Of a DNA stretch of 59,713 nucleotides, positions 4,132 to 27,052 are shown piece after piece. The notes beneath the pieces were generated by a model. The model was not told the origin of the DNA, made no database searches, and saw only the letters and a program-made list of their open reading frames with translations. The stretch is from positions 1-59,713 of the forward strand of contig JAFGEW010000030.1 of assembly GCA_016931415.1 (NCBI GenBank). The letters are read 5' to 3'. Made by a program: the position numbers and the translations under genes. Source of the DNA: Verrucomicrobiota bacterium (lineage in GTDB: Bacteria; Auribacterota; JABMQX01; JAFGEW01). The first letter of the stretch is position 1; every line of letters begins with the position of its first letter.

Positions 4132-4392
4132 TGTAAGTCCCCCCTCTCCATGCTTGACCAATGTCCGTATCGTCGCCGGACGAGCTGGACCCCGGCGGGT
4201 GGCCGTACGCGGGCACTACACGAGTGCCCGGGCCGCCCGCGTCGACGCGCGGCTCGTCGGGTGTACCCGCAGTGTGTGAGTGGCCCAGCGGAGGCTCCGA
4301 TCCGCGCTGGCTCGTGACATGGCCGACCCGGACGCTCAAGGAGCTTGGGCGGTGCAGAACGAGAAGATGCAAAACCCTACTTTGGCGCACAG

Positions 4393-8637: not shown

Positions 8638-9828
8638 ATGGAGACACAGAACCAGAGACGCGGCATCCCCGCGAGGGACACGAAACGTACACAGACGTGG
8701 CGTTCAGCAGTGGGTCTGGCGGCCATTGTGGCTTTGGCCGTCGCAGGCGTTGCGCTTGTTGGCTGCGGCGAGAAGGCGTCACAGGACAATGGGAGAGACA
8801 CGACGAAGAGCAGCACGAAGAAGAGCGACCCGGTAGACGACGTCAAGGCGAAGGAGCGCGGGCCATTCGAGATGCCCATCGTTGTCGTGAAGTACTTCCC
8901 GCTCAAAGACGGCGAGATCGACTTCGGTGTCACGCGCGAGTTCCGCGGCACGCTGGATGCGGCGCGCAAGCACACCGACTCAATCACAGCCGACGTGATC
9001 ACCGCCCTCGAACAGGGCTCGCGCTACCACGCCTACAGCAACCCGAACGCCACGCCGAGCATGGACTACACCGTGCTTCAGACCTACGAGTACTTGGAGT
9101 CAATGCCGACCGTCGAGAAACGCGGGCACACCGTCCCGTTCCCCGATTACGCCAGGATCATGGAGCGTATAGACGCCCGGTCCTGGGTCGAGGAGAAGGG
9201 CGTCAAGGAGATCTGGATCTTCGGCTATCACGGCACCATCGGCCTGTGGGAATCGAACATGTCGAGCCCGTACGGCGACATCAGCAACAGCGACCGCGAC
9301 CCCAAAGACTTGCCTGTGTTCAAGAAAACCTACACGGTGTATCACTACAACTACGGCCGGGGCCGCAACGAAGCGCTCGAAAACCACATACACCAGATCG
9401 AACACGTGCTCAACTTCATCGGCGACCGCGACGTGACGCCGCAGGATCAGTGGGCCTCGCTGCTGTTCTGGGGCAAGTTCGTCGGCAGCGACATCTCGCA
9501 CAAGATGATTCCCACCGAGCAGGGGTTCTACCGCTGCGGTTGGGCCCACTATCCGCCCAATGCCGAGAGCGACTACGACTGGCGCAATGAGCGCGTCGTC
9601 ATGTCCGACATCGAGGACTGGAAGCCGGACGGCTCGGGCGAGAAGAAGCCGGTCACCTCGGCGATGTGGGATGGCGACAGCTACAAGTGGTTCATCTACT
9701 GGATGCAGAGCATCCCGGGCATGGATAACGGCTTGACCTACAACGGCAAGCCGCTTCGCAACTGGTGGCTGTTCGTCGCCGACTTCGACACCGCCATGGC
9801 GAACAAGATGAAGCTCGTTGCCGAGTGA
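8638..9828 (+). CDS. Hypothetical lipoprotein
   Basis: 396 aa, ATG 8638 behind GAGGAAGGGGG. A long basic n-region (about 20 residues) is followed by a hydrophobic helix and lipobox LVGC with Cys43, then a low-complexity Ser/Thr/Lys linker, so it should be lipid-anchored. The main domain starts near residue 75 (PIVVVKYFPLKDGEIDF) and includes VKEIWIFGYHGTIGLWESN, YHYNYGRGRNEALENHIHQ, WASLLFWGKFVG and a tryptophan-rich C terminus. The HIHQIEH stretch could bind metal. I do not recognise a characterised family. The conserved-looking WIFGYHG and RNEALENHIHQ blocks suggest an enzyme-like secreted domain. Confidence 0.75.
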   Translation: METQNQRRGIPARDTKRTQTWRSAVGLAAIVALAVAGVALVGCGEKASQDNGRDTTKSSTKKSDPVDDVKAKERGPFEMPIVVVKYFPLKDGEIDFGVTREFRGTLDAARKHTDSITADVITALEQGSRYHAYSNPNATPSMDYTVLQTYEYLESMPTVEKRGHTVPFPDYARIMERIDARSWVEEKGVKEIWIFGYHGTIGLWESNMSSPYGDISNSDRDPKDLPVFKKTYTVYHYNYGRGRNEALENHIHQIEHVLNFIGDRDVTPQDQWASLLFWGKFVGSDISHKMIPTEQGFYRCGWAHYPPNAESDYDWRNERVVMSDIEDWKPDGSGEKKPVTSAMWDGDSYKWFIYWMQSIPGMDNGLTYNGKPLRNWWLFVADFDTAMANKMKLVAE

Positions 9829-9889
9829 TCGCCGGCCGAGGCGGGCCGCTGCATCCAGGATCCGACAGGAGGAGGGTTGCCAGAACACC

Positions 9890-11269
9890 GTGACGCTTGA
9901 GCTCTTCGACAGCCACAATCACCTCTATCTCGAGAGGTTCGACGAGGACCGCGAGGCGGTGATCGAACGGGCGGGCGCGTCGGGCGTGGTCGGGATGGTG
10001 TGCGTCTCGGAGAATGCCGCAACGGGGCGCCGCTGCCTCGATCTGGCCAACGCGCATCCGGAGATCTGGGCCGCCGTCGGCCTGCACCCGCACGAGGCGA
10101 AGGCGGACTCCGCCGCGCACCTTGATGAGACCCGGGCGCTCGCGCGGGAGTCGCGCGTGGTGGCTATCGGCGAGATCGGCCTCGATTACTACTACGACCA
10201 CTCGCCGCGCGACGTGCAGTGCGACGTGTTCCGCCGCTACCTGCGGCTCGCGCACGAGGTGGGCAAGCCGATCATCGTCCACTGCCGCGACGCCTTCGAT
10301 GATTGCCGGCGCATCCTTCAAGAGGAGCAGCGGGGCCATCACCTGGGCGTGATGCACTGCTACACGGGGACAGCCGAGCAGGCCGTGCCGTTCCTCGATC
10401 TGGGGCTCTCCATCTCGTTCGCGGGGCCGGTCACGTTCAAGAACGCCCGGCAGGCGATCGAGGCGGCACAGGCGATCAAGATCGAGCGAATGCTCGTTGA
10501 GACCGACGCGCCGTTCCTCGCGCCGCAACGCGTGCGCGGCGCGCGCTGCGAGCCAGCCCATGTGCTCGACGTGGCGCAGAAGATCGGCGAGGTCAAGGGG
10601 CTAAGCGTCGAGGATGTGGGGCGCATCACGACGCGCAACGCGCGGCGTCTTTTCGGCCTCGGGCTCGCCGAGCATGAGACGATCGCCTATCCCATCCGCA
10701 ACTCGCTCTATCTCAACGTGACCAACCGCTGCACGAACGCGTGCATCTTCTGCGCCCGCGCACGCGATCCGGTGGTCAAGGGCCACAACCTGCGGCTTGA
10801 GCACGAGCCCGGCGCGGCGGAGATCGTCGCCGCCGTGGAGGACCCAAAGGCGTACAAGGAGATCGTCTTCTGCGGCTACGGCGAGCCGCTCATCCGGCTC
10901 GACGTGGTCAAGGAGGTCGCTGCGATGCTGCGCGCGCGTGGCGCAAGGCGGATCCGCATCAACACAAACGGCCAGGCCAACCTCGTGCACGGCCGCAACG
11001 TGCTACCCGAACTGGCGGCGTTCGTCGACGAGATCAGCATCAGCCTCAACGCACCGAGCGAGGCCGAATATGCGCGCCTGTGCCGGTCCGAGTTCGGCAC
11101 ACGCGCCTTCGAGGCGGTCAAGGAATTCATCCGCGAGGCGACCAAGCGCATTCCGACGGTGACCGCCACGGTCGTCGCCGTACCGGGGCTCGACATCGAG
11201 GCCTGCCGCGCGCTCGCTGAAGAACTGGGTGCACAATTCCGCGTCCGCCCATACAATGAGGTCGGATGA
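9890..11269 (+). CDS. TatD family metallo-hydrolase fused to a radical SAM domain
   Basis: A 459-aa two-domain protein. I chose GTG 9890 because AGGAGGAGG lies upstream and the protein then begins at the first TatD strand. Residues 1 to about 260 are TatD-like: DSHNHL, AAVGLHPHEA, AIGEIGLDYYY, IIVHCRDAF, MHCYTG and VETDAPFLAP, which supply the metal-binding His, Glu and Asp. After a linker, residues about 275-459 form a radical SAM domain with NRCTNACIFCAR (CX3CX2C for the 4Fe-4S cluster) and VFCGYGEPL. The second half matches the TatD-associated radical SAM family, normally encoded as a separate neighbouring gene. The product of the radical SAM half is unknown. Confidence 0.9.
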   Translation: MTLELFDSHNHLYLERFDEDREAVIERAGASGVVGMVCVSENAATGRRCLDLANAHPEIWAAVGLHPHEAKADSAAHLDETRALARESRVVAIGEIGLDYYYDHSPRDVQCDVFRRYLRLAHEVGKPIIVHCRDAFDDCRRILQEEQRGHHLGVMHCYTGTAEQAVPFLDLGLSISFAGPVTFKNARQAIEAAQAIKIERMLVETDAPFLAPQRVRGARCEPAHVLDVAQKIGEVKGLSVEDVGRITTRNARRLFGLGLAEHETIAYPIRNSLYLNVTNRCTNACIFCARARDPVVKGHNLRLEHEPGAAEIVAAVEDPKAYKEIVFCGYGEPLIRLDVVKEVAAMLRARGARRIRINTNGQANLVHGRNVLPELAAFVDEISISLNAPSEAEYARLCRSEFGTRAFEAVKEFIREATKRIPTVTATVVAVPGLDIEACRALAEELGAQFRVRPYNEVG

Positions 11270-12550: not shown

Positions 12551-14356
12551 ATGACCGACAAGAGCGCCAGACACGTCGATGACCAGCCGAAAGGGACCAA
12601 GCACTATACGGTCCGCATCGACGAAATCGGGATCATGGCGGCCAAGGTATTCGTCTGGGCGGTGCTCGTCGGCTTAGCCGTATTCTACTTCTGGTACAAG
12701 TACACCGAGCGGCTCGGAGTCGCCTCGCCCGAGGCGTTCGAGTTCGCGCAGATCGCGCGCAACAACCTGCGCGGCGAGTGGTTTCAGACCGACGTGATCC
12801 GGCCCATCGGCCTGTGGCTCAACCCCGATGTGCATCATCATCCTGATCTTTTCCATCCGCCTGCCTACTCCGTGGCGCTTGCCGGGGTGATGAAGATCTT
12901 CGGAGTGCACCATCGGGCGATGCTCTGGGGCAGCGTGGTCTTCTATGTGCTCACGATACCGGTGCTTTACTTTGCCGTGCGCTCGATGTACAGCCGGCGG
13001 GTGGCGCGGCTGTCTTTGTTTTTCTACGCCATTATGCCGGCCGTCGGTATCGCCGCCGTCAGCGGCACGCCGGCGATGCTGGCGGTCTTCTTGGTCACCT
13101 CGTTTTTCGCGCTCCTCTCGATCGTCCGCGAGAAGCGCTATCTCGCCACCGTCGCGGCGGGGCTCGCGTTGGCGGCGTGCGCGCTCACGGCGACACGCTA
13201 TGTGTTTCTCGTCGTACCCGGAGTGGCGTTCCTCGTACTCACGCTCAAGCGCCGTGCCTGGGTGCACGTGCCGATCCTGCTCGTGGTGGCCACGCTCGGC
13301 CTGCTGCCGTGGGCACTACGCAACGCGCAGCTCACGGGCAGCCCCTGGGCGCCGATGGAGTGGACAGCGTCCTACCAGCTCTCCGAGGAGAGCAAGCACC
13401 GCGCGGTGAGCGAGATGCGCGCCACGCTGGCCTCCTCGCACGAGATCGAGCATTCGTTCTCGCCCGAGGCGCTCGAGATTACGCTGCTCGGCAAGGAAGG
13501 CGCCCGGGCGCTGGCGCGCAACCTGCGGCTCGGCCTCGGTGACTTGGTGCGCTATGGCGGGCAGAGCATTCTGATCGTGCTGTGCGTAGCGGGCGTGCTG
13601 GTTCGGGCCGAGAAGCACCAGACCGAGTGGCTGCGCATCGTGTTGTACGGGGCGGTATTCATCGAGCTCATCTACGGGGCGGTGGCCCGGCCCGACAGCT
13701 TCCTGCTCTTGCCGTTCGTTCCCTTGATGCTCGTGATCGGCACAGCAACGATGCTCGAGCTCATCAGGCGGCTCGGCTACACGCAGCCGATCTCGCGATT
13801 TGCGCTCATTGCCGTCGGGCTCACCTTGGCCGTGCTCCAGATGCTCGTCGCGACCAATCCGGCCGAGGCGTTCACCGAGACCGACCGCGAGCGCTACATC
13901 ACGTGCTGGGCGCTTGACAACGTGTTGCGCGAAACGCCCGGACCCAACGCCGTGGTGCTGAGCAATGTGCCCTGGCACACAGCGTGGTACCTTGACCGGC
14001 CTTCGATCTGGCTGCCGCCCAGCTACGACGATTTGATGCGGCTCCGGATGCAGACGGGTGAGGAGTTCACCCTCGCGTTCCTGGCACGCTATGCGCTCGA
14101 CGAGCGAGCGTCGTCGCACACGATCTGGGAAGAGGGCGCGGAACGCGGCCGCATGCCGGACAGCTTCGGCTTGGGCTACTTCTACCCGCCGGCGCGCCAG
14201 CAGGAAGGGACGTTCTCGGCCTACATTTCCGCCCAGCGATTCGAGCAGCTCCTGCGCCAGGCGCGGACCCGGGAAGAAAGCACGGAGCCGGCTGGAGACG
14301 ACACACGTTCTAGAGAAGAAAAACCGCCGGCGAGCCCGGCGAATAAGAGGGATTGA
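12551..14356 (+). CDS. GT39/ArnT-like membrane glycosyltransferase family protein
   Basis: A 601-aa integral membrane protein: cytoplasmic N terminus of about 45 residues, first membrane helix around 34-50, and at least ten hydrophobic segments to about residue 440, then a soluble C-terminal part of about 160 residues. The first luminal loop after helix 1 contains the EFAQIARNN region and DLFHPPAYSVALAG. This resembles GT-C enzymes that use polyprenyl-phosphate sugars. The stop overlaps the exosortase start (TGATG), so the two are translationally coupled. The C-terminal 40 residues are charged and low-complexity. The sugar donor and acceptor are unknown; acting on the exported polysaccharide or on exosortase substrates is inference. 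Confidence 0.75.
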   Translation: MTDKSARHVDDQPKGTKHYTVRIDEIGIMAAKVFVWAVLVGLAVFYFWYKYTERLGVASPEAFEFAQIARNNLRGEWFQTDVIRPIGLWLNPDVHHHPDLFHPPAYSVALAGVMKIFGVHHRAMLWGSVVFYVLTIPVLYFAVRSMYSRRVARLSLFFYAIMPAVGIAAVSGTPAMLAVFLVTSFFALLSIVREKRYLATVAAGLALAACALTATRYVFLVVPGVAFLVLTLKRRAWVHVPILLVVATLGLLPWALRNAQLTGSPWAPMEWTASYQLSEESKHRAVSEMRATLASSHEIEHSFSPEALEITLLGKEGARALARNLRLGLGDLVRYGGQSILIVLCVAGVLVRAEKHQTEWLRIVLYGAVFIELIYGAVARPDSFLLLPFVPLMLVIGTATMLELIRRLGYTQPISRFALIAVGLTLAVLQMLVATNPAEAFTETDRERYITCWALDNVLRETPGPNAVVLSNVPWHTAWYLDRPSIWLPPSYDDLMRLRMQTGEEFTLAFLARYALDERASSHTIWEEGAERGRMPDSFGLGYFYPPARQQEGTFSAYISAQRFEQLLRQARTREESTEPAGDDTRSREEKPPASPANKRD

Positions 14357-15612
14357 TGGACTTGGCGGTACACAGGAGACAGCCGGACCGAACAGGCTAC
14401 GTCCTGATGGGCGTGCTGCTGGCGATGTTGGCCGTCTCTTTCTACGAGCAGTGGTATTGGTGCTCCGAGTCGTGGTTCCGCATGGGCCTCCTCGGCGAGG
14501 GCGATAACGCTGGCTACTCGCCTGGGCCGCTCGTGCCCATCCTGGTACTGCTCATGCTGAGCACCCGGCTGCGCCGGGTCACGCCGACGCCGGAGCTGGC
14601 CAAGGAAGACCTGTTCCACGCCGCTTACATGAAGCTGATCCACCCGGTTGTGGTGCGCGTGGTCGCCTTCTGGCAGAGCTTCCGCGGCGCAAAGAGTAAC
14701 GCCGAGGAGCTTCAGAAGCTCGCCTACGGCAGGCGCGCCGTCGCGGTCTGGGTCGTCTGGCTCCTGCTCGCAGCGCTCACGGCAGTCACGCTCAGCTCCG
14801 AGCCAAGCGGCGTTACCGCAAAACCGCCATACGAGCTGTCGCGTCCAGGTTGGATGCTTCTGTTCGTTGAGATCGTGCTGTTCGGTGCGGCCGTTATGTA
14901 TGTGGCATGGCGCCTCTTCCGAGGTGACGCAGAGACCGTGGCGGCGGCACGCCACCCAGGCCACGTCGTAGCTGGCGCGATCATCCTCGTCGGGTCGTTG
15001 CTCGCGCATTTCGGGGCGGTACGCGGGCTGATGCCACAGGTCTCGATTGTTGCCTTCATGGGATCTCTGATTGGGTTGCTCTGGATGCTCTACGGGTGGC
15101 GCGTGGTGCGGGTACTTGTGTTCCCACTCTTGTTCATGGTGCTGACGATTCCGATGGACTGGGTCGAGATGCATGTCGGCCTGCCCGCCCAGATCTTCGC
15201 CACGAAGTACTCCGTGGCCATCATGCAGTTCATCGGTCTCAACGTCGAGATTGTCGGGCGCACGGCCTTCGACGTCATCCGGGCCGGCCAGCACGTGGAC
15301 TTCAAGGTTGACGCCCCGTGCAGCGGGCTTAAGTCCCTCGTGGCGCTCACGGCAATCTCGGCCACATACGGTTACCTGACGCAGAAGACCACGCTGAAGG
15401 TGGTCATCATCATGGCGTGCGGGCCATTCTTGGCAATCATCACGAACATCATCCGGCTCGTCGCCGTCGGTGTCACGGCACACTTCTTCGATCGCACCGC
15501 AGCGATGTGGGTCCACGACCACGCGCTGCCGATCTATATCTTGGCCATTCTGTTCCTGATGTTGATTGACAAGGCGTTGAACTCGAAATGGCTCAAAATC
15601 GAAGACTTCTGA
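14356..15612 (+). CDS. Exosortase (PEP-CTERM processing transpeptidase)
   Basis: A 418-aa polytopic membrane protein. ATG 14356 overlaps the preceding stop. It has the N-terminal YSPGPLVPIL motif of exosortases and the proposed catalytic residues: Cys322 in APCSGLKSL, Arg367 in NIIRLV and a His (387 or 389) in WVHDHALP. By family knowledge, exosortases cut PEP-CTERM tails at the membrane and attach the protein to a surface acceptor. It is longer than minimal exosortases: a hydrophilic stretch (about 75-130) and extra helices precede the core. An EpsI-like gene overlaps its 3' end by 25 bp, the usual partner arrangement. Candidate substrates in this window lie at 3223-4131 and 39379-40008. Confidence 0.92.
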   Translation: MDLAVHRRQPDRTGYVLMGVLLAMLAVSFYEQWYWCSESWFRMGLLGEGDNAGYSPGPLVPILVLLMLSTRLRRVTPTPELAKEDLFHAAYMKLIHPVVVRVVAFWQSFRGAKSNAEELQKLAYGRRAVAVWVVWLLLAALTAVTLSSEPSGVTAKPPYELSRPGWMLLFVEIVLFGAAVMYVAWRLFRGDAETVAAARHPGHVVAGAIILVGSLLAHFGAVRGLMPQVSIVAFMGSLIGLLWMLYGWRVVRVLVFPLLFMVLTIPMDWVEMHVGLPAQIFATKYSVAIMQFIGLNVEIVGRTAFDVIRAGQHVDFKVDAPCSGLKSLVALTAISATYGYLTQKTTLKVVIIMACGPFLAIITNIIRLVAVGVTAHFFDRTAAMWVHDHALPIYILAILFLMLIDKALNSKWLKIEDF

Positions 15613-16493
15613 TCGCCATCGCTCTCGTCGCCGCATTCGGCCTGGTGCTCCAGTTCGGATTCCGGAACGTGCACCTCAACAACGAGGTGTACTACTCGTC
15701 GGCGCCCGATGAGCTACCTGGGTTTGTGGCTGTCGAGATGTACGTCTGCCCCGAGTGCGAGGCGGAGATTCGCACAGCGTGGGCGGCCCGGCACGATACG
15801 AGCTCCCAGAACAAGCTGCCCGAAGGCATGTCGCTTGCCTATGAAGAACCGACCGAGGACGGCTTCTGCCGGTTCCACTCCGGCACGAGGCTCGAGGCCA
15901 GGAGAGACCTCCCGATCGAACCAGGCGTCATCACAGGACTACCCGCGCAGACCGAGTTCATCAATCGCCGCTACGTCGAGAGAGACAGGAATAGGACCAG
16001 CGTCGATTCGATCCACCTCACTATCGTGATCAGCCAACGCGACCGGCGCAGCATCCACCGGCCCGAGAGCTGCCTCTACTCGCAAGGCTGGAACCAGACG
16101 GTCCCGCCAACAGAAATGAACGTTCCTTGTTCAGGCCGACCGAACAACGAGATCAGGGTTCGGAAGCTCCTCATGGAGCAAACCGTCAAAACCAGAAGCG
16201 GCCAACCGGCGCTGCTGCACCTTGTTGTGAATACCTGGTACGCGGCTCCGCCCGACCGGGTCACCCCAACGGAACTCAACTACCTGCTGCAGATGTTCTA
16301 CGACCGCCTGTTCAACGGGATCAATTATCGGTGGTCGTCCGTGCTGATCTCCTCAAGAGCGTTCCCAGGCGAGGACAAGGACAGGGCGGCGGGCCGGCTC
16401 AAGCAGTTCGTTCAGGAGTTCTCGGAGTGGGCCGAAGCCGAACGTCACGACGCGGAACGGGCGAACGAATTGGAGGGCGGCGGCGCAAATTAA
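15588..16493 (+). CDS. EpsI-like exosortase-associated protein
   Basis: 301 aa, one N-terminal membrane segment (LLIAIALVAAFGLVLQF) and a periplasmic remainder. The block RRSIHRPESCLYSQGWNQ, followed later by LLHLVVNTWY and a terminal PGEDKDRAAGRLKQF segment, matches the EpsI/DUF3485 pattern found fused to or next to exosortases. The start overlaps the exosortase gene by 25 bp. Between residues about 48 and 95 it has an insertion with CPEC and later CRFH, possibly metal-binding, that I do not associate with standard EpsI. It is probably the last gene of the GT39-exosortase-EpsI operon; a new promoter follows at 16587. Confidence 0.82.
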   Translation: MAQNRRLLIAIALVAAFGLVLQFGFRNVHLNNEVYYSSAPDELPGFVAVEMYVCPECEAEIRTAWAARHDTSSQNKLPEGMSLAYEEPTEDGFCRFHSGTRLEARRDLPIEPGVITGLPAQTEFINRRYVERDRNRTSVDSIHLTIVISQRDRRSIHRPESCLYSQGWNQTVPPTEMNVPCSGRPNNEIRVRKLLMEQTVKTRSGQPALLHLVVNTWYAAPPDRVTPTELNYLLQMFYDRLFNGINYRWSSVLISSRAFPGEDKDRAAGRLKQFVQEFSEWAEAERHDAERANELEGGGAN

Positions 16494-16586: not shown

Positions 16587-16615
16587 TTGACAATTCGGAA
16601 CCCTTGTGGTATAAA
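16587..16615 (+). promoter_or_regulatory. Strong sigma70-type promoter
   Basis: TTGACA (16587-16592), a 17-bp spacer and TATAAA (16610-16615), matching the consensus at 11 of 12 positions. It lies about 100 bp upstream of the secreted SLH-like protein gene at 16717 and should begin a new transcription unit covering some or all of 16717-27192. Confidence 0.78.
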
Positions 16616-16716: not shown

Positions 16717-17259
16717 GTGTTCAAACTGATTTGCCTGTTTCCAATGGTAGTGGTCTTAGCGATGTCCGCTGCGTTCGCGGCGGAGCCTGCCGCCAACGGC
16801 GATGAGGCGCCCGGGGATGCGGAGCAGCCGGTTGTTGAGGAGAAGCCGATGACGCAGGCCGAGTTGGCGGTCATCATCGTACGCATGCTTGGCCTTGAGA
16901 GCGAGATCGACAGGAGCATCGGCGGGAAGGCAACGTTCGACGTTCGTCCAGACATCTGGTACATGGCTCACATCAACTTCCTTCGCCGGATGGGCATCTA
17001 TCCGCTGCCGGACTGGGACCCCAACGCCGAGGTGACCAAAGAGGTGCTTGCCGTCGTGCTCGTGCAACTCCTTGGGCTGCTTGGCGAGGTAGAGGACCTA
17101 AACGTGCCGGGTGATTACGTTGCCGCGCTCGAGGCGCGAGACATTGAGCTGACCAACGTGCGGGATGTGCTCAGCGAGATCGACATCATCAATCCGGTCG
17201 TGCAGATTCCAATTGGCGGAATGTTCCAGGACAACCTGTCAACCACACGCGGACGGTAG
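16717..17259 (+). CDS. Secreted protein with SLH-like module (short paralogue)
   Basis: 180 aa, GTG 16717 behind GAGAAGGAG, with a signal peptide ending AAFAAEP. After an acidic linker, the rest is one module: TQAELAVIIVRMLGLESEI, FLRRMGIYPLPDWDP, TKEVLAVVLVQLLGLLGEV, then a tail ending FQDNLSTTRGR. The paired A-V-V-L-V-x-L-L-G-L helices recall S-layer homology domains, but the canonical TRAE motif is missing. The same module, including the Q-N-x-S-T-x-R-G end, closes the next gene (residues about 495-623). There is no PEP-CTERM tail or lipobox. Function unknown; placement between EpsI and the beta-barrel suggests a periplasmic or surface scaffold. Confidence 0.8.
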   Translation: MFKLICLFPMVVVLAMSAAFAAEPAANGDEAPGDAEQPVVEEKPMTQAELAVIIVRMLGLESEIDRSIGGKATFDVRPDIWYMAHINFLRRMGIYPLPDWDPNAEVTKEVLAVVLVQLLGLLGEVEDLNVPGDYVAALEARDIELTNVRDVLSEIDIINPVVQIPIGGMFQDNLSTTRGR

Positions 17260-17320
17260 TCCGCGCCGTGCCGGGCGCGAGGCGGGTCAAGAGGAACTGC
17301 TCGGGGGGGAGTGAGGGGTG

Positions 17321-19192
17321 ATGAGGCGAGTTATTGTGAATGCCGCCATGGCGGCCGCCCTCGTGGCGGCCGTCTTCGCGTCGAGCGGTCGTGCCGGGGC
17401 CACCGAGGAAGAAGCCTCGGCAAACGATCAGGAGGGAACGCGGGTCACCGCACAGCGGGGAACGGCCGAGGCCTTGCTGCTGGGCGCGGCCGAGTGGGTC
17501 GCCACGCAGATCGACTCCAGCTACCCGTGCGGGTGCGAGCTTCGCACGGGGCGGCGCTCGTACATGGAAGTCTACTTTGACGAGGCGAACAGCTTCCGGA
17601 TCAAGGCCGATACGCACGTGCGCGTCGGCAAGGTGCTGGAGACCGTCGAGGGCGAGTCGGGCAGCATCGTGCGCCTCGTCGAGATCGAGATGGTCGACGG
17701 TGAGGTCAACGCCCGGCTGGGCCGCCTACCCGACGACGTGCGTGTCAACGTCACCTCGCCCAGTGCGGTGGCCGGGGCGACGGGCACCGGCTTCACGTTC
17801 ATCTTCAACAGGCGCGAGCAGGAGACGCTCGTCAAGGTCACGCACGACAGTGTGCTCGTCGGTGCGCGCGACCGGGCCGACAAGCAGGTGGCGGTGGCTG
17901 CGCTGCAGCAGGTCGAGGTGCGCCCGTGGGCTGACGGCGAGCTGACCGCCGTGGGCCGCGCCGCGCTGGACGAGAAGGAGCTTGGCAAGGAGTCAGTCGC
18001 CCGGTTCCGCCAGAAAGAGGGCGCCGATCTCACGGTGAGCGCCGTCGGCACGGCCCCGGCGCTCGACGAGGCGCTGCCCCAGGGGGCAACGGCCGCCGAG
18101 CGTGCCCAGCGCCGCGGCGAGTCGCTGGCAGCCGCGACCGACGCGGCTCGTTCGGCGCTGGCCGACCTTATCTACGGGCTGGCGGTTGACGCCCCCGCGG
18201 AAGCGCCCATGACGACCGTGGCCGACGTGTTGGCACAGGACAGTGGGTTGGCCTCCAAGGTCTACGAGTTGATCAACAACGCAGCGATAGCAGGTCCCAC
18301 GTTCACCGATGACGACGCCTGCACGGTCGTAGCCCAGCTCGAGCTGGCTGCGCTGGGCGAGGCGCTCGGGCAGGAGCTGGGCACGGGGCTTCGCGGCGTG
18401 CGCGAGATTACCGAAGCCGGCTACTTGGCCACCTTCGGCGCCGACGCGCTCGCCGCGACACGCAAGGCGGCTGAGGCCGACGGCAAGAGACGGTTGCGAC
18501 TCAAGCTCAACAAAAGCATCATCGACCGGGGCCGCACACTCGAAGATGAGGCGAACCGCAACGCCAACGTCCGGTTGACGATCCTGGGCGTAATCGATAA
18601 GGCCGTCGTCAAGGAGACGCACTTCTACTCCGATGGGTCGCTCGGGCTGCTCATGAGCTGCATCTTGAGCACGATCGCGGAGAACCATCCCGAGATCGTC
18701 GGCACGCTTTACATGTCGAGTCCCGAGCCCGTGTTGCTTGGCGACTTCATGGACTATCGCTTCGTGCGCGAGCACCTGGCCGCCGTGCGCGAGGACGGTG
18801 GTGGCCAGAGCCAGGGGGCGCTCGCCAAGGCAATCGTCAAAATGCTTGGGCTCGAGGACCGGATGGATCCGAACGCGACGGATCAGGACTATGCCAACTT
18901 CCTCGCGGCGATGGGGGCATTCCCGATCGGCGGGTGGCGCGTGGGCCACGTGGCGACCGAAGAAGACCTTGCCGTTGTGCTGGTCAAGATGCTAGGCTTG
19001 CTTCCCGAGGTGGATGATCCGGACGATCCGGAGGGCTACCTGGCGCTGCTCCGCGAGCGGGGCCTTGTGCTGGGCAACATCCGCAACCTCCTTGGCAATA
19101 CGGGAGCGGTGAATCCGCTATTGCAGGTGGTCGGTGGGACGCCGTTGAGCGGGCTGTACCAAAACAACGTCTCCACCGTTCGTGGTTTCTAG
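17321..19192 (+). CDS. Secreted FecR-domain protein with LPP20-like repeats and SLH-like C-terminal module
   Basis: A 623-aa protein; GTG 17318 two codons earlier is an alternative reading (GTGATG). A signal peptide (AAVFASSGRAGA) is followed by a FecR-like beta domain, about 55-205, with EVYFDEANSFRIKADTHVRV, RLPDDVRVNVTSPSAVAGATG and TLVKVTHDSVLVGA. Two LPP20-like alpha/beta segments follow: around 265-350 (DAARSALADLIYGLAVD ... CTVVAQLEL) and around 380-450 (RKAAEADGKRRLRLKL ... GLLMSCIL). The last about 125 residues repeat the module of the upstream gene and end LYQNNVSTVRGF. The FecR part lacks a transmembrane anchor, so it is unlikely to be an anti-sigma regulator and is more likely structural. 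Confidence 0.82.
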   Translation: MRRVIVNAAMAAALVAAVFASSGRAGATEEEASANDQEGTRVTAQRGTAEALLLGAAEWVATQIDSSYPCGCELRTGRRSYMEVYFDEANSFRIKADTHVRVGKVLETVEGESGSIVRLVEIEMVDGEVNARLGRLPDDVRVNVTSPSAVAGATGTGFTFIFNRREQETLVKVTHDSVLVGARDRADKQVAVAALQQVEVRPWADGELTAVGRAALDEKELGKESVARFRQKEGADLTVSAVGTAPALDEALPQGATAAERAQRRGESLAAATDAARSALADLIYGLAVDAPAEAPMTTVADVLAQDSGLASKVYELINNAAIAGPTFTDDDACTVVAQLELAALGEALGQELGTGLRGVREITEAGYLATFGADALAATRKAAEADGKRRLRLKLNKSIIDRGRTLEDEANRNANVRLTILGVIDKAVVKETHFYSDGSLGLLMSCILSTIAENHPEIVGTLYMSSPEPVLLGDFMDYRFVREHLAAVREDGGGQSQGALAKAIVKMLGLEDRMDPNATDQDYANFLAAMGAFPIGGWRVGHVATEEDLAVVLVKMLGLLPEVDDPDDPEGYLALLRERGLVLGNIRNLLGNTGAVNPLLQVVGGTPLSGLYQNNVSTVRGF

Positions 19193-19246
19193 ACGTCGTG
19201 AAGACCTGGCAAAGCACTTCAGCGTGTGCAGGGAGAGACAGATCTT

Positions 19247-20542
19247 ATGAAATGGACCGTTGTGCTTGCCGCTGCAGCGGTAGTAATGGCGTTCGTGATG
19301 GATGCCGAGGGAGCTCAGTTCGTCGGCGGCCCACTGTTGGGTGGCGCTTATGACGAGTTGTTGCCCGTGTTGGTGCGAGGCCGAACGTTTGTGCCGTCGT
19401 TCAAGGCTCGCATCGAGTACGACGACAACATCTTCACAGAAGAGACCGACCCGGTCGAGCAGTGGAAGCTGGTGATCGAGCCCAAGCTCGACCTGCACAT
19501 TCTGCGCGAGACGACCTACCTGGGCCTCTCGTACCAGTACTCGCTGCAGATCTACGAGGATCGCGATCCCGACACCGATCAGTCGCACGACGCTTCGTTG
19601 ACCTTCAACCACAAGTTCTCCGAACGTGTCGAGCTGCGCGTGCGTGACCGGTATCGCCGGATGTTCGAGCCGGAACTGGTCGAGGCCACAGTAACCGACG
19701 AGGTTGCCGGCGAGCGGGTCGTCACGCGCCGGCTCCGCAATGACCGCGACTACAACATCTTCAGTCCGACCGTGATCGTCGGGGTGACCCCGAAGCTCAA
19801 CGGGAGCGTTACCTACGAGAACGTCTGGGTCGACTACGAGGACCCCGAGGTCAGCATCTCGGGCGACTACATGCAGAACAGCGGCTCGCTGGCGGGCAAC
19901 TACATCCTGTCGCAGCAGACCTATCTGACCTTTTTCTATCGCTACCAGGACATCGACTATGACTCGGACGAGACCAAAGTGGACTCGACTTCGAACATCG
20001 CCTCGATCGGGGGCACGCACCGCTTCTCGCCGACGCTGAGCGGCACGCTCCAGGTCGGCGTCGAGCGGCGCACGTTCGCCGATTTCACGCGAACGGCCGA
20101 GGACGGCACCGAGGAGCGCATCACCGACCAGACGCAGACGGCGCCCTACATCAGCGCCAGCATCCGGGCGCCGCTGAGCGAGACGATCTCGACCGAGGTG
20201 GGGTACTCCTATCGCATCGAGGAGACGACTGAGGCAGCCTTCCTCTCCCAGGAGCTGCAGTCGGTCTACCTGGCGGTGTCGCAGTCGTTCACGGACCGGT
20301 TCTCGACCACGTTCAACGCCACGCTCGATTTCAGCGAGTTCAGCATCGACGAGGCACGTTTCCCGGAAACGCAGAGCACGTTCGACGAGCAATCGATCGC
20401 TTTCGCGCTTGTTTTCCGCTACGCGATCAGTTCGAACTGGCACGTCGAGGCCGGCTGGCGTTTCACGGACGTGGACTCGGACTTCCCTCGACAGTCGTAC
20501 AGGAGAAACCGGCCGTTCGTCGGCGTCAGCGCCATCTTCTAA
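19247..20542 (+). CDS. Outer-membrane beta-barrel protein of the exosortase/EPS locus
   Basis: 431 aa, ATG 19247 behind GGGAGAGA, with a signal peptide ending DAEGAQ. Beyond residue 45 it is a string of amphipathic beta strands separated by short turns (PSFKARIEYDDNIF, YLGLSYQYSLQIYED, LTFFYRYQDIDYDSD, STEVGYSYRIEETTE). It ends NRPFVGVSAIF, a C-terminal strand with terminal Phe typical of outer-membrane barrels. Similar barrels (putative beta-barrel porin 2 type) occur in exosortase/EPS loci. It may be the outer-membrane conduit or an accessory to Wza-type export; that is inference. Confidence 0.82.
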   Translation: MKWTVVLAAAAVVMAFVMDAEGAQFVGGPLLGGAYDELLPVLVRGRTFVPSFKARIEYDDNIFTEETDPVEQWKLVIEPKLDLHILRETTYLGLSYQYSLQIYEDRDPDTDQSHDASLTFNHKFSERVELRVRDRYRRMFEPELVEATVTDEVAGERVVTRRLRNDRDYNIFSPTVIVGVTPKLNGSVTYENVWVDYEDPEVSISGDYMQNSGSLAGNYILSQQTYLTFFYRYQDIDYDSDETKVDSTSNIASIGGTHRFSPTLSGTLQVGVERRTFADFTRTAEDGTEERITDQTQTAPYISASIRAPLSETISTEVGYSYRIEETTEAAFLSQELQSVYLAVSQSFTDRFSTTFNATLDFSEFSIDEARFPETQSTFDEQSIAFALVFRYAISSNWHVEAGWRFTDVDSDFPRQSYRRNRPFVGVSAIF

Positions 20543-20631: not shown

Positions 20632-20780
20632 ATCGCGTGAGCTTCCGGCGTCCCGAGTGCAGCCTATGCCGACATGCCACGCGAAGGTCGAAAGGCCTAA
20701 ACCGGGGGCGGGCCGGTGCCGTTGAGTTCCCTGGTGAGGTATTGTCCTGCTACTGAGTCGAAGCAAGGAGCGTGAGGACT

Positions 20781-23111
20781 GTGAATTCCTCCCCCGTTCA
20801 TCCGCCTCAAGCCGAACAAGACAAACTGCACTTCCTCGACTACTGGCAGGTGATCGCCAAGCGCAAGGAAGTCATCATCGCCACGGCCGTGATCCTGATC
20901 TTCGCCGTGACGGTGTATTCGTTCGTCGTGCGCTCCGAGTACACGGCGACGGCGCAGATCCGCATTGACACGCCGGCAGCGAACACCAACCCGTTCGGGG
21001 GACCGATGGCGGAGCTGTACACCCGGCCGCTTGACGAGGCCGAGTATAACACCCACCAGATCCAGATCACCTCCGACCCGGTGCTGCGGCGCGTGATTGA
21101 GGGCAGACTCAGCGAGGGGCAATGGATCTGTGATACCTGCGGCCGCGAGTACAGCGAGGAAGAGGTCGAGAGGCTCGGCGAGTTGTCCTGCATCTCCCAC
21201 GGGTGTGATGGACGGATCCGGCGCGAGAGCGGAGAGAAGTACCCCACATGGGTTCCGCTCAACGAGACTTGGGCCCGTTTCGACAACGAACCGGAGAAGT
21301 ACGATACGGGGTACGCCATCTACCTGCTGCGCAAGCGGGTGCGCGTCCGCCCCGAACGCGGCACGCGGCTCATCAACATCTCCTATACGAGCCCCGACCA
21401 GAATGAGGTGGCCACGGTCGCGAACATGGTGGCCCAGGTCTACCAGCAGGAGCAGGAGGATCAGTCCAAGAGGAAGGTCCGTCGGGCGCTGTCGGCATTA
21501 CTCGAGGAGATCGAGGATCTGCGCCGCGGCGGCGCGGGCCCCAACGCCAAGGGTCTCGACCAGCTCGAGAAGGAGCGCGACCAGTTCAAGAAGGACAATG
21601 CGCTCATCTTCACCAACCAGGGCGTGCTCGAACACATGGACCTCAACCAGTGGCGTGCCGAGCGGCTGCGGCTTGAGGTGCAGATCGCCAGTCGGACCGA
21701 GCGGCTCAAGCAGCTCGAGGGGCTGCAGAAGGAGGAGCTCATCGATGCGCTCCAGGGCGACCAATCGCTCTATGACTACAAGCGCATGAAGGCCCAGCAG
21801 GAAATTTCCCTGAAGCAGGCTCTGGTCGACTACGGCGTGAGTCATGATGCCGTCACTCGGCTCACAGAATCCATCGCCGACCTGCAGTCCAAGATCGAGA
21901 AGCAGGCCGACGGGGTCCTGAACGCATTGCGCATCGATCTGGCCGGGTTCCTGATAGAGAAAGCCAAGCTCGATGAGCGAATCGCCAAGCTCGAGCTGGA
22001 TATCTACACCAAAGAGGAGGCCATGACCAAGTATCGCCGGCTGTCCGACGAGGTAGAGCGGCTCCGCGCGATCTACGATCAGATCACGGCCAAGAAGGTC
22101 ACTGAGACGATCAAGCAGGCCATTCCCGAGTCGCAGGTGGTCATCACGCAGAACGCCTCGCCGCCGATGACGCCGTCAAAGCCCAACCGGATGGTCAACA
22201 TCATCATCGGCGTCGTCGTTGGGCTCACCGTCGGCACCGGGCTCGCGTACTTCATCGAGTACCTTGATACGAGCGTCAAGACCATCGACGACCTCGAGCG
22301 AAGCCTGGCCATGCCGATCCTGGGGGTGATCCCACAGCGGGTCAAGCTGCTCACCGAGGTCACACACAAGTCGCCGGCCTACGAAGCCTACCGGATGCTG
22401 TGGACCAACATCGACTTCGCGCGCCAGGAGAGCAAGCTGCGCACGCTGCTGGTAACCAGCGGCGGCGTAGGCGAAGGCAAAACGACCAGCCTGGCCAACC
22501 TGGCCATCGTCGCCGCGCGCGAGGGCAACAAGGTACTGGTGATCGACAGCGATTTCAGGCGCCCGCGCGTGCACAAGCTGTTTGGGATCTCGAACCACGA
22601 GGGGCTCACCGACGTGCTGCTGCGGAGCGTCGATCCGGACCGGGTGTGCATCGAGACCAAGGTGCCCAACCTCTGGGTCATGCCAAGCGGCAAGCTGCCT
22701 CCGAGCGCGATGGGGCTCCTCAACTCGCGCAACATGCGCGAGTGCATCGAGTACCTGCATGACCGCTACGACATCATCCTGTTCGACTCGCCGCCGGTGA
22801 TCGGCGTGAGCGACGCTTCGGTGCTTGCCGGCCTTGTGGACCGCATCGTGCTCGTTGTCGAGTACCGGAAGTACCCGAAGACGGTGGCCACACGGGCCAA
22901 GAGGATCCTCGAGAACGTCGGCGGCAAGATTCTCGGCGGCGTGATCAACAACCTCAACATCATCAAGGAAGACTACTACTACTACTCGCAAGTCTATCAC
23001 TACTTCCAGGCCTCCGGCGAAGACGCCGAGGACCAGGAAGCTACCGATGCGACCCCGGCCGATGAGGCATCGGCATCGAGCGACGAGAGCGAGAGCGAGA
23101 ACAAGGGCTAA
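20781..23111 (+). CDS. Polysaccharide chain-length determinant/tyrosine autokinase (Wzz-BY-kinase)
   Basis: 776 aa. GTG 20781 is chosen because AAGGAG lies 10 bp upstream; GTG 20772 is too close to it. Topology: membrane helix around 30-50, periplasmic Wzz domain and coiled coil (about 210-430), second helix around 475-490 preceded by a proline-rich ASPPMTPSKPNR, then the cytoplasmic kinase. Walker A is SGGVGEGKTTS (Lys567), Walker A' VLVIDSDFRRPR and Walker B ILFDSPPV. A tyrosine cluster (EDYYYYSQVYHYF) near the C terminus is the expected autophosphorylation site. Residues 117-142 contain CX2C-X16-CX4C inside the Wzz domain, an unusual likely zinc-binding insertion. It controls polymer length and export with the Wza-like proteins downstream. 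Confidence 0.92.
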   Translation: MNSSPVHPPQAEQDKLHFLDYWQVIAKRKEVIIATAVILIFAVTVYSFVVRSEYTATAQIRIDTPAANTNPFGGPMAELYTRPLDEAEYNTHQIQITSDPVLRRVIEGRLSEGQWICDTCGREYSEEEVERLGELSCISHGCDGRIRRESGEKYPTWVPLNETWARFDNEPEKYDTGYAIYLLRKRVRVRPERGTRLINISYTSPDQNEVATVANMVAQVYQQEQEDQSKRKVRRALSALLEEIEDLRRGGAGPNAKGLDQLEKERDQFKKDNALIFTNQGVLEHMDLNQWRAERLRLEVQIASRTERLKQLEGLQKEELIDALQGDQSLYDYKRMKAQQEISLKQALVDYGVSHDAVTRLTESIADLQSKIEKQADGVLNALRIDLAGFLIEKAKLDERIAKLELDIYTKEEAMTKYRRLSDEVERLRAIYDQITAKKVTETIKQAIPESQVVITQNASPPMTPSKPNRMVNIIIGVVVGLTVGTGLAYFIEYLDTSVKTIDDLERSLAMPILGVIPQRVKLLTEVTHKSPAYEAYRMLWTNIDFARQESKLRTLLVTSGGVGEGKTTSLANLAIVAAREGNKVLVIDSDFRRPRVHKLFGISNHEGLTDVLLRSVDPDRVCIETKVPNLWVMPSGKLPPSAMGLLNSRNMRECIEYLHDRYDIILFDSPPVIGVSDASVLAGLVDRIVLVVEYRKYPKTVATRAKRILENVGGKILGGVINNLNIIKEDYYYYSQVYHYFQASGEDAEDQEATDATPADEASASSDESESENKG

Positions 23112-23179
23112 CGGGTGTGAGGGCGGGCCGGACGCCTGGTGGTGCGTTGCAGGCTGCGGACAGGAGAGGAGATTGGGCC

Positions 23180-23800
23180 ATGGCGTGGTTGCGTTTGGTT
23201 GTGCTCGCCGCAACGGCGACAGTCCTGTTGTCGGGTTGCCCGATCCCGGGCAATTCCATCAAGTATGAGGAGGGCCTGCCCCCGCTGCCCGAGGGCGATC
23301 CGGCGCTCAACTACCGGATTGTTGTGGGCGATGTGCTTTCCATCGAGGGTGGTAAGAACGCCGAGCTGGCCAAGGACTCGGTGCAAGTCGACGAGAATGG
23401 CGAGATCAACCTGATCTACATGGGCAAGATCAAGGTGGTGGATCTGACCAAGTCCGAACTCGAGGCCGCCATCAACAAGGCCTACATGGAATCGGGCAAG
23501 TACCAGGACGCCCAGATCACGGTGAGCGTGCTCACGCTCTACTATTTCGTCGACGGCGAAGTCCGGATCCCAGGCCGGAAGCAGTACCTTCGCCAGATGA
23601 CGCTGTACCGGGCCATCGTCGATGCCGGCGGGTTCACCGAGTTCGCCGCGCCGACGCGCGTCACGCTGCTCCGGCCCCAGCCGGACGGCACACACAAGGT
23701 GTGGAAGATCAACATAAGCCAGGTCATGCGCGGGAGCAAGCCGGACAACGTGGTCATCTTGCCCAACGATGTGATCCGCGTGCCGAAGAGCGTGTTCTGA
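23180..23800 (+). CDS. Polysaccharide export lipoprotein, Wza-like (copy 1)
   Basis: 206 aa. ATG 23180 follows AGGAGAGGA and gives a lipoprotein signal with LLSGC (Cys20). The Poly_export domain starts NYRIVVGDVLSIEGGKN, followed by a SLBB-like segment (TLYYFVDGEVRIPGRKQY ... TLYRAIVDAGGFTEFA) and the terminal LPNDVIRVPKSVF. It lacks the C-terminal amphipathic helix of E. coli Wza, so another protein such as the beta-barrel upstream may supply the outer-membrane pore. A close paralogue follows 20 bp downstream. Confidence 0.9.
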   Translation: MAWLRLVVLAATATVLLSGCPIPGNSIKYEEGLPPLPEGDPALNYRIVVGDVLSIEGGKNAELAKDSVQVDENGEINLIYMGKIKVVDLTKSELEAAINKAYMESGKYQDAQITVSVLTLYYFVDGEVRIPGRKQYLRQMTLYRAIVDAGGFTEFAAPTRVTLLRPQPDGTHKVWKINISQVMRGSKPDNVVILPNDVIRVPKSVF

Positions 23801-23820
23801 AGCGGCGGGGAGGACGAAGC

Positions 23821-24426
23821 GTGCACAAGGTTGTGTTTCTTTTGCTGCTGCTGACGGCGGGGGTGCTGGCCGGCGCCGGCTGCAACGGCGGGCGGCCGGA
23901 ACCACTTCCTCCGCCCACCACTGACAATCCGATCGACACCTACCAGATCACCGTGGGCGACGTGCTGTCCATCGACGGCGGCAAGAACCAGGAGGTGTCC
24001 AAGGACCAGGTCCGCGTTGACGAGGAGGGCCAGATCAACCTGATCTTCATCGGCAAAGTCAAGGCGAAGGGTGTGACCAAGAGCAAGCTGGAAGACGAGA
24101 TCAACCGGAGATACAAGGAAGCGGGGCACTTCACCGATCCGCAGGTGAGTGTAACGGTGCTGACCCTGTCCTACTTCGTGGATGGACAGGTGCTGTTGCG
24201 CGGCCAGAAAAAGTACGTGCGCCAGATCACGCTATACCAGGCCATCATCGACGCCGGCGGCTTCACCGAGTACGCCAGTCGCGGCAGGGTAGCCGTGCTC
24301 CGGCGCCAGCCCGACGGCACCGTGAAGCGCTACGTTGTCAACGTCAAGCGGATTATGTCGGGGCGCGCTCCGGACAGCTTCGTCGTGCGGCCCAACGACA
24401 CCATCGTCGTGCCACGCGGGTACTGA
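23821..24426 (+). CDS. Polysaccharide export lipoprotein, Wza-like (copy 2)
   Basis: 201 aa. GTG 23821 follows GGGGAGGAC; the lipobox is AGAGC (Cys21). It is collinear with copy 1 over the whole mature region: YQITVGDVLSIDGGKN, QINLIFIGKVKAKGVTKSKLE, LTLSYFVDGQVLLRGQKKY, TLYQAIIDAGGFTEYA and RPNDTIVVPRGY. This is a clear tandem duplication. The divergence is moderate, so both copies are probably functional, possibly as a mixed oligomer or as separate periplasmic and outer-membrane adaptors. Confidence 0.9.
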   Translation: MHKVVFLLLLLTAGVLAGAGCNGGRPEPLPPPTTDNPIDTYQITVGDVLSIDGGKNQEVSKDQVRVDEEGQINLIFIGKVKAKGVTKSKLEDEINRRYKEAGHFTDPQVSVTVLTLSYFVDGQVLLRGQKKYVRQITLYQAIIDAGGFTEYASRGRVAVLRRQPDGTVKRYVVNVKRIMSGRAPDSFVVRPNDTIVVPRGY

Positions 24427-24586
24427 GCAAGCAGCCCTCGTGTGCCGGGCTCGGCCAAGCGCGGCGCGGCGAAGGGCGGACGAGGGTCTTTGTTCGACCG
24501 GATTCTGGTCATTCCAGGCCCGCGATTTGCTAGACTGTGGCAGTCGTTCGGGCCTTTGTCTTGCCATGGAGAAATCGAGGGAAACT

Positions 24587-27052
24587 ATGCCGCGTCTGCC
24601 GCAACCCGAGGAACAGCCGGAAGATGAGACGCGGTGGAACGAGTCGCGCCTCCCGGAGCCGCGGCTGCGCCGACGGGGAATTGAGCGGATCGAGACCATC
24701 TGCGATACGATCGTGCTCGTGCTGCTGTTGAGCGTGCTCGTGCTGACGCCGCTCGCCTTCGGCGGAGCCGACCAGGATCTCGCGCCGTTTTCGAAGACGC
24801 CGTTCGCGCCGGCGTTGTACTACTTCAACTACTTCGTCGCGGCCGCGGCGGTGCTCATGGCGGCAGCGTGGGTAATCAAGATGCTCCTCACTGAGCGCCT
24901 TGTGCTCGCACGCACGCCGGTGGACGCTCCGCTTCTCCTGTTTCTCGCGTACGCCGTGTTGCGTGCGGCAACGTGTGCGTCGCCGACCGTGGCGTTTCGC
25001 GAGGTCGGCTGGCTCATGGCGTACGCGGCGATCTTCTACGTCACCGTCAATGTGCTGCGGACGCGGCGCCGGCAACAGGTTGTGGCGGGCGCCGTCGTGA
25101 TCACGGCACTTGCCCTGACGACCATGGGGCTGGTCATGTGGCTCAAGCCGGAGCTTCGCGACATGGCGCTGACGCTGCGCCGGACGGTGCAGTACAGCGG
25201 ACGGCTAGGGGCGAGCTACGTGTGCCCGAATCACTTCGCGGGGCTGCTCGAGATGGCGATCCCCCTTGTCCTTGCGTTGGTGATGGTGTCCAAGGCACGC
25301 GTGGTCACGAAACTGGTCGCTGGGGCGGTGGGCGTCGTGCTCGTAGTCGGGCTGATCCTATCGATGTCGCGCGGGGGGTGGATCAGCCTCGCGCTCGGCA
25401 TTGTGTTCATGCTCGCCATGGCGACGTGGCAGAAGCGCATCAACCTGATTGCCTGGATTGTGCCGCTTGTGGTTCTCGTGGCCGTTGTTGTGGGCGTTGT
25501 GCGGTCAGACGAGGGTGTGCAGAAACGGTTCGAAAGCGTCTTCGACAGTGAGGACTCGAGCTACGCGGGCCGCGCGGTCGCGTGGAAGCACACGCTCGAC
25601 CTGGCGCGCCGGCACCTGCTGTTCGGCACGGGACCGGGCACGTACCGCTGGGCGTTCACGCGCGAGCAGCCGGCGGACTTGCCGCTCGACGTGCGCTACA
25701 CCCACAACGACTATCTCCACACATGGTCCGACTACGGGCTGGTCGGGCTTGGGCTCCTGCTCTGGGGCGTGGGCGCGTTTGGCTACCGGGGCGTGCGTGC
25801 GCTACGTCGAGCGAAGAAGAGCGCCGATTTTGCGCTCATCCTGGGCGTGCTCGGGAGCACGACGACGATCGTGGCGCACTCGTTTGTCGACTTCAATATG
25901 CGTATTCCAGCCAACCTGATCACGATGCTGGTGCTCGCCGCCGTGCTCGTGGCCGCGCGTCAGTACCAGCTCCGGCGCATGGCCGAGATCAGCATGTTCA
26001 AGCGTTCGGACACAAGACGGCTGCCGGCGCCGACGAAGGTGCTCGGCGTCACAGCGGCGGCCGTGGCAGCCGTGGCCATCCTCATCATCAACGGGGGCAA
26101 GCACGAGGCGCGCGTGGCCTGGCACCGCGGGCGCATGCTCGACGTGACGCTGCCCAAGCCGATCGGCCTGAAGGAGCGCACGCTTGAGGAGCTGGACAAG
26201 TTGAGCGGCATCCCTCCCGAGGCGATCGAGGCGATCCGTGGGGCCATCAAGCAGATCGAGTCCCCCACAGCCTGGCAGGTGCGCCGTCAGGTTGAGCTTG
26301 CCGGCCGGCGCAACGGGCTCGACAATGACGGAGTCATGCGCGTCACCGACGCGCTGCTGCGCGTGCAGGCGATCGAGGAATCCGAGGAGAAGGTCATTGC
26401 CGCCTACCGGAACGCAGCACGGCTGGACGACTCGAACTTCGAGTTCCACGCCGCGCTGCAGAACTTCAACTACTTCAAAGGCGAGGTGCGCAAGCGCAGC
26501 TATGAGCAGCTCATCGCGCAGCTCGCCCGCCCGAAGGGGCGAGAGCTGGTGGACGTCAAGATCGAAGCGCTCCGGGCGTTGACCGAGTCGATCGGAGCGG
26601 GGCGCCGCGCCTTCACGCTGAACCCGATGTCGGGCTCCGTCGCCTTTGGGCTGGGCGAGGCGCACAAGCAGATGTACGACATTCTCAAGCGCGACGACCT
26701 GCCGGGCCGGCTCGCCGGGTTCGATGCCTCGCACTACGATCCGCCCGAGTACCATCAGCAGCAGGCGCGCGAGTGGTACATCAGGGCTGTCGAGCTGCAC
26801 CCGAACAACGCCGTGTTCCGCGACGGGTACGGGGGATTCCTCCAATGGACAGGCGAATACGGCTCCGCCCTTGAGCAGTATGAAATGGGAATGAAGCTTC
26901 TCGAGAAGAGACCATTGGACCAATCCTCGTTCAGCAAGCGGATCGAGCCGATCGAGGAGCGGCTGCGCAGACGCCGAGAGAGAGCGCAGCTTGCTCCGCC
27001 GGCAGACACGCCGAACGCCGATGCAACTGGGCCGGTCGAGAACGAAGACTGA
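24587..27052 (+). CDS. O-antigen ligase/polymerase (Wzy/WaaL type) with C-terminal TPR-like region
   Basis: 821 aa. ATG 24587 has a GAGGG-type site; ATG 24566 is a weaker alternative. After a charged N terminus there are about 12 membrane helices (residues about 45-520). Family blocks are VCPNHFAGLLEMAIPLVLAL, LSMSRGGWISLALGIVFMLA (with the Arg used by ligases/polymerases) and THNDYLHTWSDYGLVGLGLLL. Residues about 540-821 are soluble and helical, with tetratricopeptide-like stretches (WYIRAVELHPNNAVFRDGYG ... ALEQYEMGMKL). It should assemble repeat units into the polymer that the Wzz kinase and Wza-like proteins handle. The last codon overlaps the next gene. Confidence 0.88.
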   Translation: MPRLPQPEEQPEDETRWNESRLPEPRLRRRGIERIETICDTIVLVLLLSVLVLTPLAFGGADQDLAPFSKTPFAPALYYFNYFVAAAAVLMAAAWVIKMLLTERLVLARTPVDAPLLLFLAYAVLRAATCASPTVAFREVGWLMAYAAIFYVTVNVLRTRRRQQVVAGAVVITALALTTMGLVMWLKPELRDMALTLRRTVQYSGRLGASYVCPNHFAGLLEMAIPLVLALVMVSKARVVTKLVAGAVGVVLVVGLILSMSRGGWISLALGIVFMLAMATWQKRINLIAWIVPLVVLVAVVVGVVRSDEGVQKRFESVFDSEDSSYAGRAVAWKHTLDLARRHLLFGTGPGTYRWAFTREQPADLPLDVRYTHNDYLHTWSDYGLVGLGLLLWGVGAFGYRGVRALRRAKKSADFALILGVLGSTTTIVAHSFVDFNMRIPANLITMLVLAAVLVAARQYQLRRMAEISMFKRSDTRRLPAPTKVLGVTAAAVAAVAILIINGGKHEARVAWHRGRMLDVTLPKPIGLKERTLEELDKLSGIPPEAIEAIRGAIKQIESPTAWQVRRQVELAGRRNGLDNDGVMRVTDALLRVQAIEESEEKVIAAYRNAARLDDSNFEFHAALQNFNYFKGEVRKRSYEQLIAQLARPKGRELVDVKIEALRALTESIGAGRRAFTLNPMSGSVAFGLGEAHKQMYDILKRDDLPGRLAGFDASHYDPPEYHQQQAREWYIRAVELHPNNAVFRDGYGGFLQWTGEYGSALEQYEMGMKLLEKRPLDQSSFSKRIEPIEERLRRRRERAQLAPPADTPNADATGPVENED

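Follow-up and report, generated by a model that had tools for sequence, protein, structure and literature searches.

Within the 59,713-nucleotide stretch of an Auribacterota genome analysed here (hereafter the window; G+C content 66%), two adjacent genes in an exosortase locus encode proteins that end in the same module, raising the question of what this module is and what two such proteins would contribute to a polysaccharide-export locus. The answer developed below is that the module very probably represents a divergent SLH domain, and that the two proteins, at roughly even odds, serve the exporter whose genes lie directly downstream.

Two adjacent proteins and their common module

Both open reading frames lie at the positions given in a first-pass annotation of this DNA. 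The first protein, P1 (16717..17259, + strand), consists of a signal-like segment and the module, in 180 aa, whereas the second, P2 (17318..19192, +; 624 aa), comprises a signal-like segment, a FecR domain, an LPP20-like region and the module at its C-terminus. The common ending had been claimed in that annotation, and is borne out by BLASTP, which aligns P1 and P2 with 54 of 139 positions identical (39%, 94 bits, E 3e-27). The similarity is also well above background, with a Smith-Waterman score of 235 as compared to a mean of 29.5 and a maximum of 68 in 1000 shuffles, and every one of the landmarks named previously (IVRMLGL/IVKMLGL, NPVVQI/NPLLQV and FQDNLSTTRGR among them) is present. The module occupies aa 45-180 of P1 and aa 497-624 of P2 (18806..19189, +). 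In P2 it is a C-terminal addition, because a FecR-LPP20 paralogue on another contig of the same genome (C131) aligns with aa 5-485 of P2 and stops there; FecR-LPP20 relatives from other genomes, where examined, likewise lack the module. No similarity between P1 and P2 at the DNA level is detectable by blastn, and a recent duplication of the module is therefore ruled out. Both proteins have a hydrophobic segment resembling a signal at the N-terminus and no membrane segment at the C-terminus, and thus are probably exported.

The FecR domain of P2 (17540..17854, +; Pfam PF04773, aa 75-179, E 9e-5) scores 23.3 bits against a cutoff of 24, slightly under the threshold that is exceeded in relatives. 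For the LPP20-like region (18431..18652, +, limits approximate), PF02169 is matched in relatives only, with E-values of 2.5e-4 and 0.0045 that are both below cutoff, and Pfam makes no LPP20 call in P2 itself. Thus, of the two extra parts that had been assigned to P2, the FecR domain is supported at a slightly sub-cutoff score, while the LPP20-like part is not recovered in P2 and is weak in its relatives.

A third copy of the module is found on contig C79 of the window genome (L035, 7624-7998, - strand), in a protein of 125 aa with a lipobox-like LLLSASC, outside any export locus. A separate scan of genome contigs with a three-row module alignment yielded two named loci, a 14-row alignment being too diverse; P2 as a single-protein query gave no match among genome contigs, and no relatives were found in viral contigs.

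An exosortase and polysaccharide-export locus

The placement of P1 and P2 in an exosortase locus, also claimed previously, is upheld by an exosortase gene (14353..15612; PF09721, E 4e-33) and a gene for an EpsI-type protein (DUF3485; 15588..16493; Pfam and NCBIfam) upstream, preceded in turn by a PMT_2-type glycosyltransferase gene (12551..14356; Pfam E 1e-12). Following P2 by 33 bases is a gene for an outer-membrane beta-barrel of the BBP2_2 type (19226..20542; PF10082, E 2e-8), and beyond it lie genes for a Wzz/Wzc-type chain-length determinant with tyrosine kinase (20772..23111; Pfam and NCBIfam), a short OPX protein (Poly_export and SLBB, 226 aa; 23117..23797; Pfam E 1.5e-16), a second short OPX protein (240 aa; 23701..24423; Pfam E 5e-18) and a Wzy/O-antigen-ligase-type protein with TPR repeats (24335..27049; PF04932, E 2e-25). 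The order, all on the + strand, is PMT_2, exosortase, EpsI, P1, P2, BBP2 barrel, Wzc, OPX, OPX and ligase. An exact match to a sigma-70-like promoter, TTGACA-N17-TATAAA (16587..16615, +), stands about 100 bases 5' of P1 and had no counterpart in 100 shuffles; TTGACA is also found at -91 to -95 relative to three related module-only genes. Elsewhere in the window, a single open reading frame (9818-11266, +) has matches to both TatD DNase and radical SAM proteins.

The module as a probable divergent SLH domain

Neither Pfam nor NCBIfam places P1, the module of P2 or the modules of their relatives in any family above cutoff. The earlier statement that the module belongs to no named family accordingly holds for these two collections, although the superfamily itself is known. 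The best PF00395 (SLH) score is 14.0 bits (E 0.05, cutoff 20.8) in one relative, with none for P1 or P2, and PF00395 is above cutoff in none of the 44 genomes of the phylum. Aligned by hhalign with an SLH set picked independently through Pfam, from which G095 and G224 were omitted because the module profile had matched them, the module core reaches a probability of 96.8% and a score of 48.5, as compared to 9.9 +/- 2.4 (maximum 19) for 200 column permutations and 11 for the reversed alignment. In P1 the match resolves into a full SLH motif (DVRPDIW...GIYPLPDWDP...VTKEVLAVVLVQLLGL; 16939..17082, +; hhalign probability 96%, AF2 and Foldseek) and, ahead of it, the second half of a further motif (MTQAELAVIIVRMLGL, equivalent to the TRAE helix; 16849..16896, +; a second hhalign match at 49%). 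The remaining stretch scores only 2-4% as a third motif, leaving about 1.5 repeats where the SLH pseudo-trimer has three motifs. The common module is thus very probably a divergent SLH domain in which one complete motif follows the second half of another.

Searches of genomes and structures agree with this assignment. A profile of 16 modules, run against 384 genomes, gave weak matches outside the phylum, to canonical SLH proteins in G095, G369, G224 and G343 as well as to a small secreted module protein in G352 and a tandem module protein in G262. Two other weak matches, within the phylum in G016 and G023, fell on a conserved protein resembling a B12-binding/radical-SAM enzyme and were judged to be due to chance. 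Among PDB sequences, 3pyw and 6bt4, both SLH structures of Sap, head the list of matches, at weak E-values of 0.13-0.19. When the P1 module was modelled with AF2 (pLDDT 70), Foldseek placed SLH structures at ranks 1, 2, 3 and 5, with a best probability of 0.97 (E 0.11). In the AF2 model of P2, most of the first 90 residues have a pLDDT of about 88; the match of this model to 3pyw is weak, ranking 16th by E-value (5.6), yet first by TM-score (0.44) and probability (0.15). The earlier description of the module as SLH-like is therefore supported by profile-profile comparison, by the whole-genome profile matches and by the predicted fold of P1, with the P2 model adding weak support.

It is highly improbable that the module is instead an unrelated small helical domain that resembles SLH through convergence or chance. 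The failure of Pfam SLH ever to exceed its cutoff and the weak fold match of P2 would fit such an origin, but the permutation-controlled profile match, the SLH proteins among the out-of-phylum matches, the fold of P1 and the SLH DV-W and VT signature that P1 keeps all argue for common descent. In several long proteins (L135, L067, L198, L202 and L216), SLH-like halves appear to be split by repeated beta-rich domains.

Loss of the pyruvate pocket

In canonical SLH domains, Gly29, Arg43 and Trp13 bind a pyruvylated sugar (PMC6081394). These residues have been lost from the module almost entirely: none of 16 modules has Gly at position 29; Arg43 is replaced by Gln or His in all 16 first motifs and retained in 2/16 second motifs; and Trp13 survives in a single module, that of P1. 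Nor does the polysaccharide pyruvyl transferase family PF04230 have a match in the window genome (completeness 98.9%) or in a further seven genomes that carry the module, and the module and the transferase do not co-occur significantly (p 0.51 over 44 genomes of the phylum, uncorrected for kinship). Because the ligand residues are lost and PF04230 was not found, a classical pyruvate anchor appears unlikely on residue and gene content.

For the same reasons, it is quite improbable that P1 and P2 are fixed to the wall as S-layer proteins and OmpM-type porins are, with the module binding a pyruvylated secondary wall polymer. The SLH descent of the module would suit that role, as would pyruvyl transferase matches in 4 of the 12 module genomes found first (one of them a short fragment), but a domain of some 1.5 repeats, rather than three, adds to the missing residues and the missing enzyme as evidence against it.

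Linkage to the export barrel

The first-pass annotation had proposed a docking or attachment unit of the exosortase/EPS system. Docking remains plausible, but the tie to the exosortase fails. Exosortase genes occur in 10 of 12 module genomes and in 23 of 32 others (p 0.70; 44 genomes of the phylum, kinship uncorrected), so that the expected co-occurrence is not seen and an exosortase-specific factor is rejected; numerous module genes lie in polysaccharide-export loci without an adjoining exosortase. P1 and P2 were also rejected as exosortase substrates, since neither ends in a hydrophobic sorting tail. Such a tail, of PEP-CTERM-like type (...VPEPSLLLLLAPGLGLLALRLRKGK), ends a 312 aa protein encoded elsewhere in the window (3226-4161, -), which judging from its C-terminus is a likely substrate of the exosortase of the locus.

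The BBP2 barrel, when examined over the same 44 genomes and again uncorrected for kinship, is found in 10 of 12 module genomes versus 7 of 32 others (p 3e-4). The order PMT, exosortase, EpsI, SLH protein, BBP2 and Wzc is conserved in the window, G003, G019 and G026. G003 and G019 keep the whole window order, with one SLH protein in the position of P1 and P2 and one OPX gene, and G026 has the window-like order up to Wzc, where its contig ends. In G001, exosortase, EpsI, SLH protein and BBP2 precede a contig end, and G005 and G013 each have a module-only gene 5' of BBP2 and ligase genes. In G028, and in G352 and G262 from outside the phylum, a module gene is found upstream of barrel, OPX and Wzc genes.

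A survey of BBP2_2 in 384 genomes provided 60 barrel neighbourhoods with 2010 open reading frames, against which a module profile built before the survey was run. Six of the 2010 matched at E<0.01, and none did when sequences were reversed. All six belong to loci that also encode OPX or Wzc, and precede BBP2 by 1-3 genes, a placement with a joint chance of about 2e-5. Iterating the profile added four loci (G007, G011, G003 and G026); in G158 it revealed additional tandem copies. For a diverged group from the survey, the match is 98.5% to the Auribacterota core and 87% to SLH. The survey found proteins of this kind in other phyla as well; the genomes outside the phylum with such genes are G120, G158, G295, G100, G210, G352 and G262.

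The module was found in 10 of 46 barrel loci with EPS markers and in none of 14 others, a difference that is not significant (p 0.10), and went undetected in 36 of the 46; in some loci the slot upstream of BBP2 holds small beta-rich proteins, in others a protein with FecR. Because most EPS-marked loci lack a detectable module and have other secreted proteins in its place, the slot has several alternative occupants, among them the SLH-like protein, which is not a universal part. Other proteins upstream of BBP2 include alanine-rich repeat secreted proteins (L173 and L174) and small secreted beta-rich proteins of an 'FTG..LPSGE' type (L176, L179, L182 and L188), the three scanned having weak cupin matches.

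Copies outside export loci

Of 17 strong module copies in the phylum, seven lie outside export loci: three beside putative CHASE2 genes, three in SLH-FecR genes elsewhere and one on C79. The module therefore has additional uses beyond export. These copies lend some credit to the idea that the module is a general tether between outer membrane and peptidoglycan, or an envelope scaffold, with no specific role in export and a gene order that is merely historical. SLH domains do tether outer membranes in other diderms, and in Negativicutes through a ligand other than pyruvate (PMC10628300). A general tether is nonetheless unlikely here, as it would leave aside that the module gene, in genomes that are not related, recurs in a close position immediately before the export barrel, and that G158 has tandem copies upstream of that barrel.

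FecR-LPP20 relatives and SLH-FecR genes adjoin, in many genomes, genes that are putatively of CHASE2 type, as judged from their kind of sequence. The former lie near such genes, mostly divergently, at L036, L050, L051, L053, L054, L136, L138 and L139, and the latter adjoin them at L047, L049 and L134. This neighbourhood is what would be expected if FecR and the SLH-like module sensed the envelope or the polymer and reported to CHASE2-type proteins that control polysaccharide production. Signalling is rather improbable for P1 and P2, however: neither the window operon nor the export loci examined contain a CHASE2-type gene, and the module-only proteins have no signalling domain.

A proposed role in the exporter

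The preferred reading, held with a probability of about 0.5, is that P1 and P2 act as accessory subunits that dock, in the envelope, the putative composite OPX/beta-barrel translocon encoded directly downstream. The locus combines a BBP2_2 barrel with two Poly_export/SLBB proteins of 226-240 aa, in which an outer-membrane helix is probably absent, judging from length and domain content. As putative secreted envelope proteins, P1 and P2 would serve this barrel-OPX translocon by means of an SLH-like module that, having lost its pyruvate pocket, may pack onto a periplasmic partner. Such a partner could belong to the exporter, as the barrel or the short OPX protein, or could be peptidoglycan or the polymer in transit. 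The module could in this manner keep the barrel-OPX pore aligned with the wall, and the FecR domain of P2 might give a second contact.

Somewhat short of even odds is the broader proposal that SLH-derived secreted proteins without the pyruvate pocket make up an unnamed but widespread family and form a dedicated third component of OPX/beta-barrel translocons in several phyla, in a slot interchangeable with FecR-type and other beta-rich proteins. A recurrent SLH-derived partner encoded beside the barrel is a concrete candidate for the anchoring of composite OPX/beta-barrel exporters in the envelope. If so, SLH domains would extend from wall anchors to parts of exporters, in a phylum without Pfam SLH.

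Comparison with known systems

Composite OPX/beta-barrel translocons were described in 2022, with Myxococcus EpsX/EpsY as the example (PMC9601211, PMC9603273). The window resembles them in having short OPX proteins, a barrel, Wzc and a ligase in one locus, and differs by the addition of SLH-like secreted proteins; a text search of both papers found no mention of SLH or FecR, and the literature searched, incomplete in coverage, held nothing relevant that pairs SLH with exosortase or Wzc. With the PEP-CTERM/exosortase EPS loci (TIGR03016-type OMP, EpsI and XrtA-associated kinase), the window shares exosortase, EpsI, barrel and kinase, as well as a protein with a PEP-CTERM-like tail, but the module does not track the presence of exosortase.

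The SLH domain of Sap and SpaA (PF00395) is likened to the module by its helix-loop-helix, GI loop and VT-x-x-D/E-L-A helix, by the profile match and, for P1, by the fold. The module departs from it in falling below the Pfam cutoff, in possessing one full and one half motif rather than three, in a loop, GIxPxxG(W/F), that is three residues shorter, and in the near-complete loss of Gly29, Arg43 and Trp13. Similarly, the OmpM and other SLH porins that tether outer membranes link an SLH-type module with an outer-membrane beta-barrel. In the window, however, the module is carried unfused on a separate secreted protein, whose gene adjoins that of the barrel.
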